DNA of 64,000 nt, from NCBI RefSeq assembly GCF_003058055.1, contig NZ_QBTZ01000001.1, positions 746,501 to 810,500 of the forward strand. Reading direction: 5' to 3'. The notes beneath the pieces are model-generated. The model saw only the letters and a program-made list of their open reading frames with translations, was not told the origin of the DNA and searched no databases. Numbering within the stretch: position 1 is the first letter of the stretch; each line of letters starts with the position of its first letter. Shown here piece after piece: positions 56,984 through 60,761 of this stretch. The DNA is from Acidovorax sp. 107. Its GTDB lineage: Bacteria; Pseudomonadota; Gammaproteobacteria; Burkholderiales; Burkholderiaceae_C. The position numbers and the translations under genes are program-made.

Positions 56984-58186
56984 CTACCAGCTCACTTCGC
57001 GGTCTGGCGTGGCACTGATCTTGTGGATGCTCAGGTCGGCGCCGTCAAACTCTTCTTCCTGCGTCAGTCGGATGCCCACCGTCTGCTTGAGGATGCCGTA
57101 CACCACCACGCCGCCGAAAAGGGCCCACACCACGCCCAGGCCTGTGCCGATGAGTTGTGCCGACAGGCTGACCCCGCCCAGCCCGCCCAATGCCTTGCTG
57201 CCAAACAGGCCGGCAGCCAAGCCGCCCCAGGTACCGCACAGCCCGTGCAGCGGCCACACGCCCAGCACATCGTCGATCTTCCATTTGTTCTGGGTCAGGG
57301 TGAACATCAGCACAAAAATGGCCCCGGCCACCGCGCCGACCACCAGCGCACCCAGCGGGTGCATGAGGTCCGAGCCCGCACACACGGCCACCAGACCCGC
57401 CAGCGGGCCGTTGTGCACAAAGCCGGGGTCGTTCTTGCCCAGCACCAGGGCGGCCAGCGTGCCGCCTACCATGGCCATCAGCGAGTTCACTGCCACCAGG
57501 CCTGAGAGCTTGTCCACGGTTTGCGCGCTCATCACATTGAAGCCAAACCAGCCCACCACCAGCACCCAGGCGCCCAGTGCCAGGAACGGAATGTTGGACG
57601 GCGGGTGGGCCGAGATCGCGCCATCCTTGCGGTAGCGGTTGGCGCGCGAGCCCAGCAAGATCACCGCCGGCAGTGCAATCCAGCCGCCCATGGCGTGCAC
57701 CACCACCGAGCCGGCAAAGTCGTGAAACTCCTCACCCGTGATGGCCTTGATCCAGCCCTGCACGCCAAAATGCTGGTTCCATGCAATGCCCTCAAAAAAC
57801 GGGTACACAAAGCCCACGATGACCGCCGTTGCCAGCAGTTGAGGCCAGAACTTGGCGCGCTCTGCAATGCCGCCCGACACGATGGCCGGAATGGCCGCCG
57901 CAAAGGTGAGCAAAAAGAAGAACTTGACCAGCGCATAGCCGCTTTGCTGCACCAGCGACTCTGCGCCGATGAAAAAATGCGTGCCGTAGGCCACGGTGTA
58001 GCCCACCACAAAATAAACCACGGTGGACACCGAGAAGTCCACCAGGATCTTGACCAGCGCATTTACCTGGTTCTTTTTGCGGACCGTACCCAGTTCCAAA
58101 AACGCAAACCCGGCGTGCATGGCCAACACCATGATCGCCCCGAGCAAGATGAACAAGGCATCCGTGCCCTGTTTGAGTGCTTCCAT
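56984..58186 (-). CDS. amt: Ammonium transporter Amt
   Basis: Trimeric ammonium channel of 400 residues with eleven transmembrane helices. Hallmarks are GTDALFILLGAIMVLAMHAG FAFLELG, GGIAERAKFW, the pore-histidine helix EFHDFAGSVVVHAMGGWIAL, LALGAWVLVVGWFGFNVMS and HPLGALVVGAVAG. The start at 58186 has GAGGACG before it and begins directly with the first periplasmic segment. A sigma-54 promoter and an NtrC-like site lie upstream. No glnK gene adjoins it inside the window, unlike the usual glnK-amtB pair. Confidence 0.94.
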   Translation of the reverse strand: MEALKQGTDALFILLGAIMVLAMHAGFAFLELGTVRKKNQVNALVKILVDFSVSTVVYFVVGYTVAYGTHFFIGAESLVQQSGYALVKFFFLLTFAAAIPAIVSGGIAERAKFWPQLLATAVIVGFVYPFFEGIAWNQHFGVQGWIKAITGEEFHDFAGSVVVHAMGGWIALPAVILLGSRANRYRKDGAISAHPPSNIPFLALGAWVLVVGWFGFNVMSAQTVDKLSGLVAVNSLMAMVGGTLAALVLGKNDPGFVHNGPLAGLVAVCAGSDLMHPLGALVVGAVAGAIFVLMFTLTQNKWKIDDVLGVWPLHGLCGTWGGLAAGLFGSKALGGLGGVSLSAQLIGTGLGVVWALFGGVVVYGILKQTVGIRLTQEEEFDGADLSIHKISATPDREVSW

Positions 58187-58259
58187 AACGTCCTCGCGAT
58201 AGTGATTGATCGACTCTGGTGCGTTTTCGTCGGACGCCACAGATTTGCACCAAGTTGAA

Positions 58260-58275
58260 GCAAGAAGCGCGCCAA
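58260..58275 (-). promoter_or_regulatory. Sigma-54 (RpoN) promoter of amt
   Basis: On the minus strand TTGGCGCGCTTCTTGC matches the -24/-12 consensus TGGCACG-N4-TTGC with one difference, with the invariant GG and GC ten bases apart. Transcription would begin near 58247, about 60 bases before the amt start. Nitrogen control of amt by RpoN and NtrC is established in proteobacteria. Confidence 0.75.
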
Positions 58276-58286
58276 GAGTTGGTGCA
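58268..58286 (-). promoter_or_regulatory. NtrC-like site overlapping the amt promoter
   Basis: On the minus strand TGCACCA-ACTCT-TGGCGCG resembles the NtrC consensus TGCACYA-N5-TRGTGCA with two mismatches. A further GGTGCA half-site lies just upstream. Its overlap with the -24 element is unusual for an activator site, so it may instead fine-tune, or only the upstream half-sites may be used. Confidence 0.4.
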
Positions 58287-58344
58287 GCACTTTGCACCGA
58301 ATTGGGGCTCTGCGCGCACCCATGGGTTTGCCGGTGGTTGATAA

Positions 58345-58359
58345 ATACTGTATAAATAA
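58345..58359. promoter_or_regulatory. Left half of a LexA box split by IS insertion
   Basis: ATACTGT followed by the target-duplication copy ATAAATAA (58352-58359). Joined to the right half at 59456 it would read TACTGTATAAATAAACAGTA, a perfect CTGT-N8-ACAG SOS box. The right arm here is replaced by IS sequence. Confidence 0.7.
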
Positions 58360-59447
58360 AAGGGGTATCTATTTAGCTCCAGTGGCATCAGAATAGCTGG
58401 ATGGAAACCCAGATGCTAACGCCAACTCCTGGACAGGACTACCCTCGCACCTGGAACGAATTTCTTGACTGGTTTGCCACCGAAGAGGCCTGCCAGGCGT
58501 TCCTGGAGAAGCTTCGCTGGCCCCAAGGCTTCGTCTGCCCGCGTTGCGGCAACGCTGGTGATGTGTACCGCGCCAGCCGCACTCGCCTGATGTGCCGCTC
58601 ATGCCAGTATCAAGGCACAGTGACCTCTGGGACCATCTTTGACAAGACGCGCACACCGCTGCGTGTCTGGCTGGCTGCAGCTTGGTACCTGACCAATCAG
58701 AAACAAGGCGTGAGCGCCCTGGGGCTGCAGCGCGTATTGGGCTTGGGGAGTTACCAGACGGCCTGGACCATGCTGCACCGGTTCCGACGCGCCATGGTTC
58801 GCCCGGGCCGGGACAAGCTCAAGGGGCTTGTGGAGGTGGATGAAACGTACCTGTCCATTACGGATCGCAAAAATCCCGCCACCCTTGCAGGGCGCAAGAG
58901 CAGCACCACCAAAGTGTTGATGGTCATGGCGGTGGAGATCGTGGAGCCCAAGGGGTTCGGGCGCATCCGGTTGCGCCGCATCGACCGAGACTCCGCCACC
59001 CACGTCATCCCCTTTGTGCAGGAAGTGGTCGAGCCCGGAGCCCAGGTCCGCACGGATGGTTCGGCGGCATACCGCGCTCTGGGAGAGCTGGGTTACACCC
59101 ACCAGCGCACCGTCATGCTCGGCTCGGGCGTACCTGCCCATGTCTGCATGGCGGGAGTGCACCGGGTCGCCTCGCTGGTACAGCGCTGGGTGCTGGGAAC
59201 GCACCACGGTTCTGTGCAGCCAGAGCACCTGGATGCCTACCTCGATGAATTCGTGTTCCGCTTCAACCGGCGCACATCCAGCTCGCGCGGGATGCTGTTT
59301 TACCGCTTGCTGCAGCAAGCGGTGGTCACGCCGCCAGTGACGTATGGGGATGTCGTGAGCAAGAATACCGGGGAGAGGCAATCGGATACCATTGCTGGAT
59401 GAAATCACAGTATCAACGGAGCTACTGGAGCTAAGCAGATACCCCTT
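58360..59447 (+). mobile_element. IS1595-family insertion sequence, intact, 1088 bp
   Basis: Terminal inverted repeats: AAGGGGTATCTATTTAGCTC on the left and the reverse complement of the right end, AAGGGGTATCTGCTTAGCTC, match at 18 of the first 20 positions and continue CAGT. The element is flanked by a perfect 8-bp direct repeat ATAAATAA (58352-58359 and 59448-59455), the target-duplication length of the IS1595 family. A single full-length transposase gene fills it, so it is probably active or recent. Confidence 0.92.
58401..59402 (+). CDS. IS1595-family transposase (ISXO2-like DDE)
   Basis: 333 residues. An N-terminal zinc ribbon has cysteine pairs FVCPRCGNAG and LMCRSCQYQG. The ISXO2-like transposase domain begins near KLKGLVEVDETYLSITDRKN (first acidic catalytic residue), continues with VRTDGSAAYRALGELGYTHQ (second) and ends with the PEHLDAYLDEFVFRFNRR segment. 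The frame is intact. Histidine and glutamate positions near HRVASLVQRW correspond to the region where some members carry the third catalytic residue. Confidence 0.93.
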   Translation: METQMLTPTPGQDYPRTWNEFLDWFATEEACQAFLEKLRWPQGFVCPRCGNAGDVYRASRTRLMCRSCQYQGTVTSGTIFDKTRTPLRVWLAAAWYLTNQKQGVSALGLQRVLGLGSYQTAWTMLHRFRRAMVRPGRDKLKGLVEVDETYLSITDRKNPATLAGRKSSTTKVLMVMAVEIVEPKGFGRIRLRRIDRDSATHVIPFVQEVVEPGAQVRTDGSAAYRALGELGYTHQRTVMLGSGVPAHVCMAGVHRVASLVQRWVLGTHHGSVQPEHLDAYLDEFVFRFNRRTSSSRGMLFYRLLQQAVVTPPVTYGDVVSKNTGERQSDTIAG

Positions 59448-59462
59448 ATAAATAAACAGTAT
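59448..59462. promoter_or_regulatory. Right half of the split LexA box
   Basis: Target-duplication copy ATAAATAA (59448-59455) followed by ACAGTAT (59456-59462). The left arm is now CCTT from the insertion sequence instead of CTGT. It lies 34 bases before the radical SAM start codon, a position where a bound repressor would block transcription. Confidence 0.7.
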
Positions 59463-59495
59463 CATCAACCGATCTCAACCCATTTGTTGCTCGCC

Positions 59496-60761
59496 ATGAG
59501 CCCATCCCCCGTCCCCGACGACGACCTGCCTGCACCGCCGCAGGAGATCCGCATCCCGCTGCAAGCCATTCGGGGGCGGGGTGCGGCCACGGCCATGGCG
59601 CACCGTTTTGCCAAAGACCAGCGCGAACGGGCGGACGATGGGTGGGGCCCTCTGCGGCCCCTTGGCGAGGCGCTGGGCCTGGAGCATGGCGGCGCGGAGC
59701 AAGCGGGTGCGCTGAACGGCGCGGTGGCTGGGGGTGGTGATGGATGGAGCGATGGATGGGATGGGGGTGACGGGGACAGTCGCTCCAGCCCCTCACCCGC
59801 CACCCGGGTGCATTTTGAGACCGCGCGCAGCGCCTTGTGTGCCAATGACTCGCCGGACATCTTCTTCGAGCTTTCGGTCAATCCCTACCGGGGCTGCGAG
59901 CACGGCTGCATCTACTGCTACGCCCGACCCACGCACAGCTACCTCAATTTTTCACCCGGGCTCGACTTTGAGACGCAGATCGTGGCCAAGCACAATATTG
60001 CGCAGGTGCTGCGTCAAGAGCTTGCGCAGCCGCGCTATGTACCGCGCCTGCTCAATATCGGCTCGGCCACCGACTGCTACCAGCCCGTGGAGCGTGACCT
60101 GAAGCTCACGCGCAGCGTGATCGAGGTGATGCGCGAGGCCCGGCACCCGTTCTCGCTGATCACAAAATCCAGCGGTGTGGAGCGCGATCTCGATTTGCTC
60201 GCCCCGCTGGCCGCACAGCGCCTGGCAGCGGTGTACGTCACCATCACCACACTCGACGCCACGCTGGCCCGGCGCATGGAGCCCCGTGCTGCTGCGCCCC
60301 ACCGGCGGCTGCGCACCATCCGTGCCCTGGCTGAGGCAGGAGTGCCGGTGGGCGTGAGCGTGGCGCCCCAGATACCCTTCATCACCGAAGACATGGAACA
60401 CGTGCTGGAGGCCGCGCGCGACGCTGGAGCGCGCACCGCGTTCTACACCGTGCTGCGGCTGCCGTGGGAGCTGGATGCGTTGTTTCGCGAATGGCTCACG
60501 GTGCACTACCCCCAGCGCGCGACGCGCGTCATGGCGCGGGTGCAAGACCTGCACCACCTCACCGAAGCCCAACGCGCCGCGGGCAAGGCCTATGACAGCG
60601 ACTTTGTGACCCGCATGAAGGGCAGCGGGCTGTGGGCCGACCTGCTGCGCCAGCGCTTTGCCAACACCTGCCGCCGCCTGGGTCTCAACCGCGAGCGTGA
60701 GGGGCTGGACCTGGGGCAGTTCAGGCCGGGGCTGCTGAAGGGGCAGGACAGCCTCTTCTAG
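59496..60761 (+). CDS. PA0069/Rv2578c-family radical SAM protein (SplB-related)
   Basis: About 421 residues. The radical SAM cluster motif is CEHGCIYCYARPTH, with the C-x3-C-x2-C spacing, preceded by FFELSVNPYRG. Further family segments are LNIGSATDCYQPVERDLKLT, FSLITKSSGVERDLDLL, YVTITTLDATLARRMEPRAA and GVSVAPQIPFITEDMEHVLE. The family is related to spore photoproduct lyase, a DNA repair enzyme, but has no proven reaction. The N-terminal ~110 residues include a Gly/Asp/Trp-rich low-complexity stretch. ATG 59496 is chosen; a TTG at 59484 is possible. An IS1595-type element interrupts what looks like its SOS operator. Confidence 0.88.
   Translation: MSPSPVPDDDLPAPPQEIRIPLQAIRGRGAATAMAHRFAKDQRERADDGWGPLRPLGEALGLEHGGAEQAGALNGAVAGGGDGWSDGWDGGDGDSRSSPSPATRVHFETARSALCANDSPDIFFELSVNPYRGCEHGCIYCYARPTHSYLNFSPGLDFETQIVAKHNIAQVLRQELAQPRYVPRLLNIGSATDCYQPVERDLKLTRSVIEVMREARHPFSLITKSSGVERDLDLLAPLAAQRLAAVYVTITTLDATLARRMEPRAAAPHRRLRTIRALAEAGVPVGVSVAPQIPFITEDMEHVLEAARDAGARTAFYTVLRLPWELDALFREWLTVHYPQRATRVMARVQDLHHLTEAQRAAGKAYDSDFVTRMKGSGLWADLLRQRFANTCRRLGLNREREGLDLGQFRPGLLKGQDSLF

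Follow-up and report, generated by a model that had tools for sequence, protein, structure and literature searches.

Insertion sequences of the IS1595 family have been described as users of AT-rich sites, and the available sections of the reports on ISEc69 (PMC7835479) and ISApl4 (PMC12561309) give AT-rich 8-mers as their targets. A connection between insertion sequences and LexA is found elsewhere, as ISCR1, ISCR2 and ISCR8 carry LexA boxes to which LexA binds in vitro, according to the accessible portion of the source (PMC13393415). The LexA motif usual in beta- and gamma-proteobacteria, in the part of its description at hand (PMC3323433), was the reference for comparison with Acidovorax. 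Here we describe an IS1595-family element in Acidovorax sp. 107 that splits such a box, and the target sites of its relatives.

The split LexA box of Acidovorax sp. 107

The window, by which we mean the whole 64,000-nt stretch of DNA that was analysed, contains an ISCsp2-type insertion sequence of the IS1595 family (58360..59447, forward strand), which is 1088 bp long and the sole copy in the genome. Reading of the sequence gives a left terminal inverted repeat AAGGGGTATCTATTTAGCTCC (58360..58380, forward strand) and a right one AAGGGGTATCTGCTTAGCTCC (59427..59447, reverse strand) that are identical at 18 of the 20 outer bases, and the target duplication is identical in 8/8 positions. The transposase (58401..59402, forward strand, 333 aa) has a zinc ribbon and an ISXO2-like DDE domain by profile matches. 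It matches the IS1595 Pfam models PF12762 (127 bits) and PF12760 (57 bits) and reaches 190 bits against NF033547 (IS1595; cut-off 75), which bears out the IS1595-type assignment of the original prediction. The name ISCsp2 was taken from plasmid proteins annotated as ISCsp2 family by RefSeq, to which the transposase is 98.2% identical in amino acids.

The original prediction had further placed the element at the exact centre of a perfect LexA box, with the duplicated 8 bp as the N8 spacer, and the coordinates confirm this. The left copy of the duplication, ATAAATAA (58352..58359), is the spacer of the box and follows the left arm TACTGT (58346..58351), which is supported by the intact box in relatives; the right copy (59448..59455) is followed by the right arm ACAGTA (59456..59461). 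Without the element and one copy of the duplication the site reads TACTGTATAAATAAACAGTA, that is TACTGT-ATAAATAA-ACAGTA. Each box copy has indeed lost one arm, with AAGG or CCTT in its place, and each side of the element retains a single arm. The right arm ends 34 bases before the ATG (59496) of the downstream PA0069-family radical SAM gene (59496..60761, forward strand, 421 aa, NF033668), and a divergent ammonium transporter gene (amt; 56984..58297, reverse strand, by Pfam) flanks the box on its opposite side.

The empty site is intact in relatives. The two nearest IS-free relatives (genomes G005 and G002, loci L018 and L019; radical SAM protein 86-89% identical in amino acids) have an identical 16-mer, CTGTATAAATAAACAG, in the corresponding position, likewise next to amt. 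The radical SAM gene is present in 43/47 genomes of the genus, with a readable upstream region in 41. Among these 41 loci, 30 have an intact CTG[TG]-N8-[AC]CAG box, seven have an IS inside the box and four are without a box, one of which (L220) was matched only from residue 137 of the gene, so that the match falls short of the true start. The orthologous locus of IS-free strains had been proposed as a check on the reconstructed box, and the box is kept in 30/34 genus loci without the element, two of them with the identical 16-mer.

The host motif is of the expected form. The 5.1 Mb genome of Acidovorax sp. 107 has 26 occurrences of perfect CTGT-N8-ACAG, against 15 of a control pattern, and no intact one falls within the 64,000-nt window. 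A perfect box precedes umuD/umuC and an SRAP gene, two CTGG-N8-ACAG boxes precede lexA and a CTGT-N8-CCAG box precedes recA. The boxes before umuD/umuC, lexA and recA indicate that Acidovorax sp. 107 uses the usual beta/gamma LexA motif. In the same genome, a perfect box stands just upstream of a 102-aa gene that has no Pfam or NCBIfam match (L014 1172-1474), and the same gene is parted from its box by the element in A. temperans (L084 4081-4386); it is a candidate for a novel SOS gene. In genome G000, a pair of perfect boxes spaced by 2662 bp recurs three times, as repeated operons would (C1:3638, 6300, 2553876, 2556538, 2833320 and 2835982). These are perhaps chance boxes in rRNA operons.

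The downstream gene had been assigned to an Rv2578c/PA0069 family. The PA0069 part of this assignment stands, with 419.3 bits against NF033668 (PA0069 family; cut-off 360), but the Rv2578c part does not: the score against NF038135 (Rv2578c family) is 208.6 bits, far below the cut-off of 430, and the family name therefore needs correction. M. tuberculosis Rv2578c is reportedly among the DNA-damage-responsive genes, and PA0069 is said to be an entry of the P. aeruginosa LexA regulon. Our literature search found no publication linking PA0069 with LexA. For the beta-Proteobacteria, splB was predicted as an SOS gene in the portion of the article available (PMC3323433), and although this may be another family than PA0069, the prediction fits a radical SAM gene behind a LexA box. 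The radical SAM gene is likely a DNA-repair gene and, judged from its sequence context, LexA control over it would be lost by splitting the box, after which the gene could be on or off. As the original prediction proposed, the insertion may have made it constitutive or replaced its promoter. A consensus scan found no sigma-70-type promoter at the split site and none at the intact L018 site.

The box of the radical SAM gene has been split more than once. In the seven genus genomes the element occurs in both orientations, four towards the gene and three away, with no clear orientation bias. In other genera, the box is split by elements with a 72-84% identical transposase (L090, L096, L107, L110, L123 and L131), and at L123 the arms are weaker (TTGT and CCAG) and the duplication is 7/8. 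Since two orientations and different elements are involved, these insertions were independent events. At L152/L032, two element pieces with an N gap between them lie upstream of the radical SAM gene. Their inner flank on the right matches the dinG box found in the Acidovorax sp. 107 genome at C1:3224564; this arrangement is likely a scaffolding mix of two copies.

Target sites across the transposase clade

A scan of one genome per species (84,980 species) gave 365 transposase-relative loci, of which the best 80 of 365 were kept; loci from the genus, the family and plasmids were added to these. Element ends were called from terminal repeats and duplication alone, without use of the box. The scored set consisted of 88 de-duplicated relatives with 63-100% amino acid identity, and 23 locus ids were left out as same-site duplicates, plasmid passengers or fragments. 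Sites with an 8/8 duplication and at least 14/18 matching positions in the inverted repeats were called exact, which applied to 49/88.

Listing the target sites of other copies had been suggested as a check, and at 49/49 exact sites the element is centred to the base on CTGT-N8-ACAG; the arms are perfect in 39 and have one mismatch in 10. They represent 48 distinct sites. In the flanking background of the same loci, 62/264,406 positions reach 7/8 arm bases. While Acidovorax sp. 107 has one copy, A. temperans DSM 7270 contributes eight copies among the loci kept (L077 and L079-L085), all within the 49 and at eight different sites. The 39/88 loci without an exact 8/8 duplication or both ends were used only in a tally of half-sites, which includes the 49. 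Over all readable ends the left arm is CTGT in 63/74 and the right arm ACAG in 60/72; six of the 11/74 other left arms are CTGG and six of the 12/72 other right arms are CCAG. Six loci with mirrored flanks or unsure ends stood outside this tally (L098, L139, L154, L116, L102 and L115). At L098 and L139 the element flanks mirror each other, which is probably an assembly artefact.

When the terminal-repeat pattern instead of the protein served as query, 18/399 genomes of the family yielded 57 ends, which belong in part to copies of the protein-based set. CTGT stood at the expected place in 42/57 of these, three of its four bases in 12, and it was absent in three. Of the loci found later, outside the 88, L207 and L209 also fit with 7 and 8 of 8 arm bases, the flanks of L199 and L206 are the same as those of the already counted L146 and L121, and some fragments were not readable on both sides. 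One locus (L239, G073 C216) has two terminal repeats about 185 bp apart in CTGT-CATTAATT-ACAG, with no room for a transposase; it is likely a MITE of the same IS family with the same target. At L089 (3001-3999) lies the transposase of an 88% relative with one stop near its end.

The insertions recur beside SOS genes. A DNA-damage gene that points away, with an estimated start at most 400 bp from the element, was found at 27/49 exact sites, a count that describes the sites and does not test them, since the query genes were taken from neighbours of the same loci. The radical SAM gene PA0069 stands beside nine exact sites and ImuA beside four. Further neighbours are UmuD, SRAP, RecA, LexA, a DinB-type polymerase, DinG, DnaE2, PolB, UvrA, UvrD, a FAN1-type nuclease, an integron integrase and rSAM_link_UDG (TIGR03916 radical SAM). 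No gene of the tested set is nearby at 14/49 exact sites; these include L130, which is beside dinG by clustering, in addition to the 27. Five more exact sites face IS91-type transposases (ISPps1-like). We take ISPps1 to be close to ISCR8 and to belong to the same wider IS91-type group as ISCR1, ISCR2 and ISCR8.

Boxes of these IS91-type (ISPps1-like) transposases are split repeatedly, in several hosts and on plasmids and in both orientations (L082, L085, L089, L180, L078 and L171). At L120 and L121 the element is in the box directly before lexA (only the lexA side is readable at L120), and at L094 it is in the box before recA of Thiomonas delicata.

The use of LexA boxes is limited to one clade. 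In a tree of 108 transposases, which was a quick build with long outgroup branches, the 46 scored box users fall into one 86-row clade (SH-aLRT 99) that contains 0/15 outgroup rows, and the trait needs one change among the scored rows. The 15 sites of distant IS1595 elements (31-54% identical), which are the outgroup sites with an 8/8 duplication, other outgroup loci being unscored, match 0-4 of the 8 arm bases. Four loci with 52% amino acid identity (L208 and L210-L212) have nearly the same terminal repeats, yet unrelated 8-mers as sites. Compared with the outgroup, the clade has a longer stretch between the first two strands of the catalytic domain (about residues 155-168). This stretch is a candidate for contact with the arms, in a part of the structural model that has modest confidence. 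The predicted structure as a whole (pLDDT 80, 25-row alignment) gave weak matches to DDE transposases and integrases, with no LexA among the 50 matches listed in the fold search, and a sequence search with the transposase found no solved structures.

Among the best 80 of 365 loci, every named host of the clade belongs to the beta- or gamma-proteobacteria, passenger copies on a Sphingobium plasmid being the exception. A search of the class brought in two more genomes of the clade and one of the outgroup. A search of the phylum matched 13/398 genomes in all, and the best matches outside this class were at most 53% identical. The phage records gave no match to the element and the E. coli genomes no near-identical copy. 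The Sphingobium megaplasmid copies were considered for testing the targeting where the host's LexA motif differs and rejected, as they are passengers in a catabolic module. Their left flank also occurs on IncP plasmids, and for both reasons these copies decide nothing on targeting.

Probable recognition of the box and its possible consequences

The ISCsp2-type clade inserts at the exact centre of LexA boxes, in our judgement probably because its transposase reads the palindrome, and the split would free the neighbouring gene from LexA. Since the duplication corresponds base for base to the box spacer, the transposase would cut where each arm, CTGT and ACAG, borders on the spacer, with 8 bp between the two cuts. 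It may contact both arms, so that arm recognition would have been added to the AT-rich 8-bp preference of IS1595. The pay-off would be a target that is present many times in each beta- or gamma-proteobacterium, is mostly intergenic and, as is partly said of SOS biology in general, is rarely essential in its intact form.

Direct reading is favoured by two observations. Firstly, a 64% relative on an Enterobacter plasmid lies at CTGG-ACGAGAAG-ACAG with its left flank inside the ISPpu12 transposase gene, where there is no SOS promoter and a frame of 288 codons runs across the site. The sole match in the E. coli genomes was 64 bp of the left flank of this plasmid copy, within ISPpu12. Secondly, GC-rich spacers occur in a few box sites. 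The spacers are mostly AT-rich, with at least six A/T in 28/39 perfect-arm sites against 3/26 perfect boxes of the Acidovorax sp. 107 genome (Fisher p 2e-6), a rough comparison as the insertion sites come from many genomes. The target thus resembles a true LexA operator more than it does bare arms, and the AT-rich spacers could stem from LexA binding or from counter-selection of insertions within genes.

The main alternative is that operator-bound LexA recruits the transposase by protein contact, in which case the element would follow LexA occupancy and not DNA sequence. This would agree with targets that are in most cases SOS promoters and have AT-rich spacers like those of operators, and with a target degeneracy (CTGG, CCAG) that equals the host's own lexA and recA boxes. 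There is a precedent in ISAjo2, the transposase of which may contact XerC at dif-like sites according to the available part of that report (PMC10132070). However, a LexA dimer would occupy both half-sites, and the insertion falls between them to the base. Moreover, some sites accept GC-rich spacers, and the left flank of one relative is in transposase coding sequence, at a weak box. The hosts do not separate direct reading from LexA recruitment since all named ones are beta- or gamma-proteobacteria apart from the passengers, and with the hosts so distributed we regard recruitment as rather unlikely.

The original prediction had also guessed that IS1595-type elements may prefer short AT-rich palindromes such as operators. 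For this clade the preference for operators holds and is near absolute (49/49), but it does not extend to AT-rich palindromes generally, as the CTG...CAG arms are kept. A simple preference for AT-rich palindromes, of which LexA boxes would be the commonest, could be derived from the AT-rich 8-mers that ISEc69 and ISApl4 duplicate in the sections of their reports available (PMC7835479; PMC12561309). It is highly improbable given CTGT/ACAG arms with 7 or 8 of 8 bases in 49/49 sites and spacers that are poorly palindromic, with a maximum of three of four pairs and only 0 or 1 pair in 19/49. Even less credible is random insertion followed by selection that retains only copies derepressing SOS genes, for although derepression of a repair gene could conceivably be selected under damage, this leaves unexplained both the base-exact centring at 49/49 sites and the copies beside IS91-type transposases and in ISPpu12.

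The element itself carries LexA-box-like palindromes near its ends. In Acidovorax sp. 107 the left one, CTGGATGGAAACCCAG (58397..58412), lies over the transposase start codon at position 38 from the left end, and the right one is CTGGATGAAATCACAG (59395..59410). CTG-N10-CAG starting 36-39 from an end was found at 46/80 left ends and 47/78 right ends, counts that include many near-identical copies. The sequence of these palindromes varies between elements but their geometry is constant. They were considered as a general cause of targeting and rejected, since a branch with 64-70% identity (e.g. L128, L132, L136, L143-L147 and L173) lacks them, yet still targets boxes. As sequence motifs, they could bind the transposase, or they could bind LexA and put transposition under SOS control. 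In a wider scheme, which we regard as rather unlikely, LexA operators became the homing site of the clade, and its elements have this palindrome close to their termini as well. Damage would then release the transposase and open its targets, and the element would move through the SOS genes one after another, lexA and recA among them, and rewire the damage response.

If the transposase does target the operator of one global regulator, each jump would remove one gene from the SOS network. The copies would then form a natural collection in which lexA, recA, umuD, imuA, dinG, uvrA and other SOS promoters are split at the same base. The transposase is compact, and its target choice could be dissected against relatives with about 50% identity that lack box targeting. 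SOS regulons could also be extended, as the empty sites are predicted LexA boxes, some of them before genes that are not known as SOS genes.

Comparison with described insertion sequences

The element shares its transposase (98.2% amino acid identity), its terminal repeats and the 8-bp duplication with ISCsp2 and the IS1595 family. It differs from other IS1595 members, which are credited with AT-rich 8-bp targets only; the sections of their reports available to us contain no description of centring on LexA boxes. Targeting of LexA boxes by IS1595 or ISCsp2 elements was unreported among the literature matches listed, in a search that took in neither ISfinder pages nor subscription journals. IS elements that target REP sequences reportedly use palindromic extragenic targets. 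Targets of this kind are common to both, but REPs are repeats, whereas each LexA box is a single operator whose regulator is known.

In its fixed position relative to the binding site of a host protein, the element resembles ISAjo2 of the IS1202 family, which inserts next to the site of XerC at pdif/dif according to the part of the report available (PMC10132070). ISAjo2 belongs to another family and, in the same part of that report, has a 5-bp duplication and inserts in one orientation and beside the site (PMC10132070). The 5-bp duplication beside dif that marks IS1202-type elements is not seen in our element, which has an 8-bp duplication in LexA boxes. Unlike ISAjo2, the ISCsp2-type elements split the centre of the site in either orientation, and the site is the repressor operator of a whole regulon. 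With ISCR1, ISCR2 and ISCR8 they share a link between insertion sequences and LexA boxes, and boxes before ISPps1-like transposases are among their targets. Yet the link differs in kind: in ISCR1, ISCR2 and ISCR8 LexA controls the element's own transposase, as stated in the available portion of the source (PMC13393415), whereas ISCsp2-type elements insert into LexA boxes.
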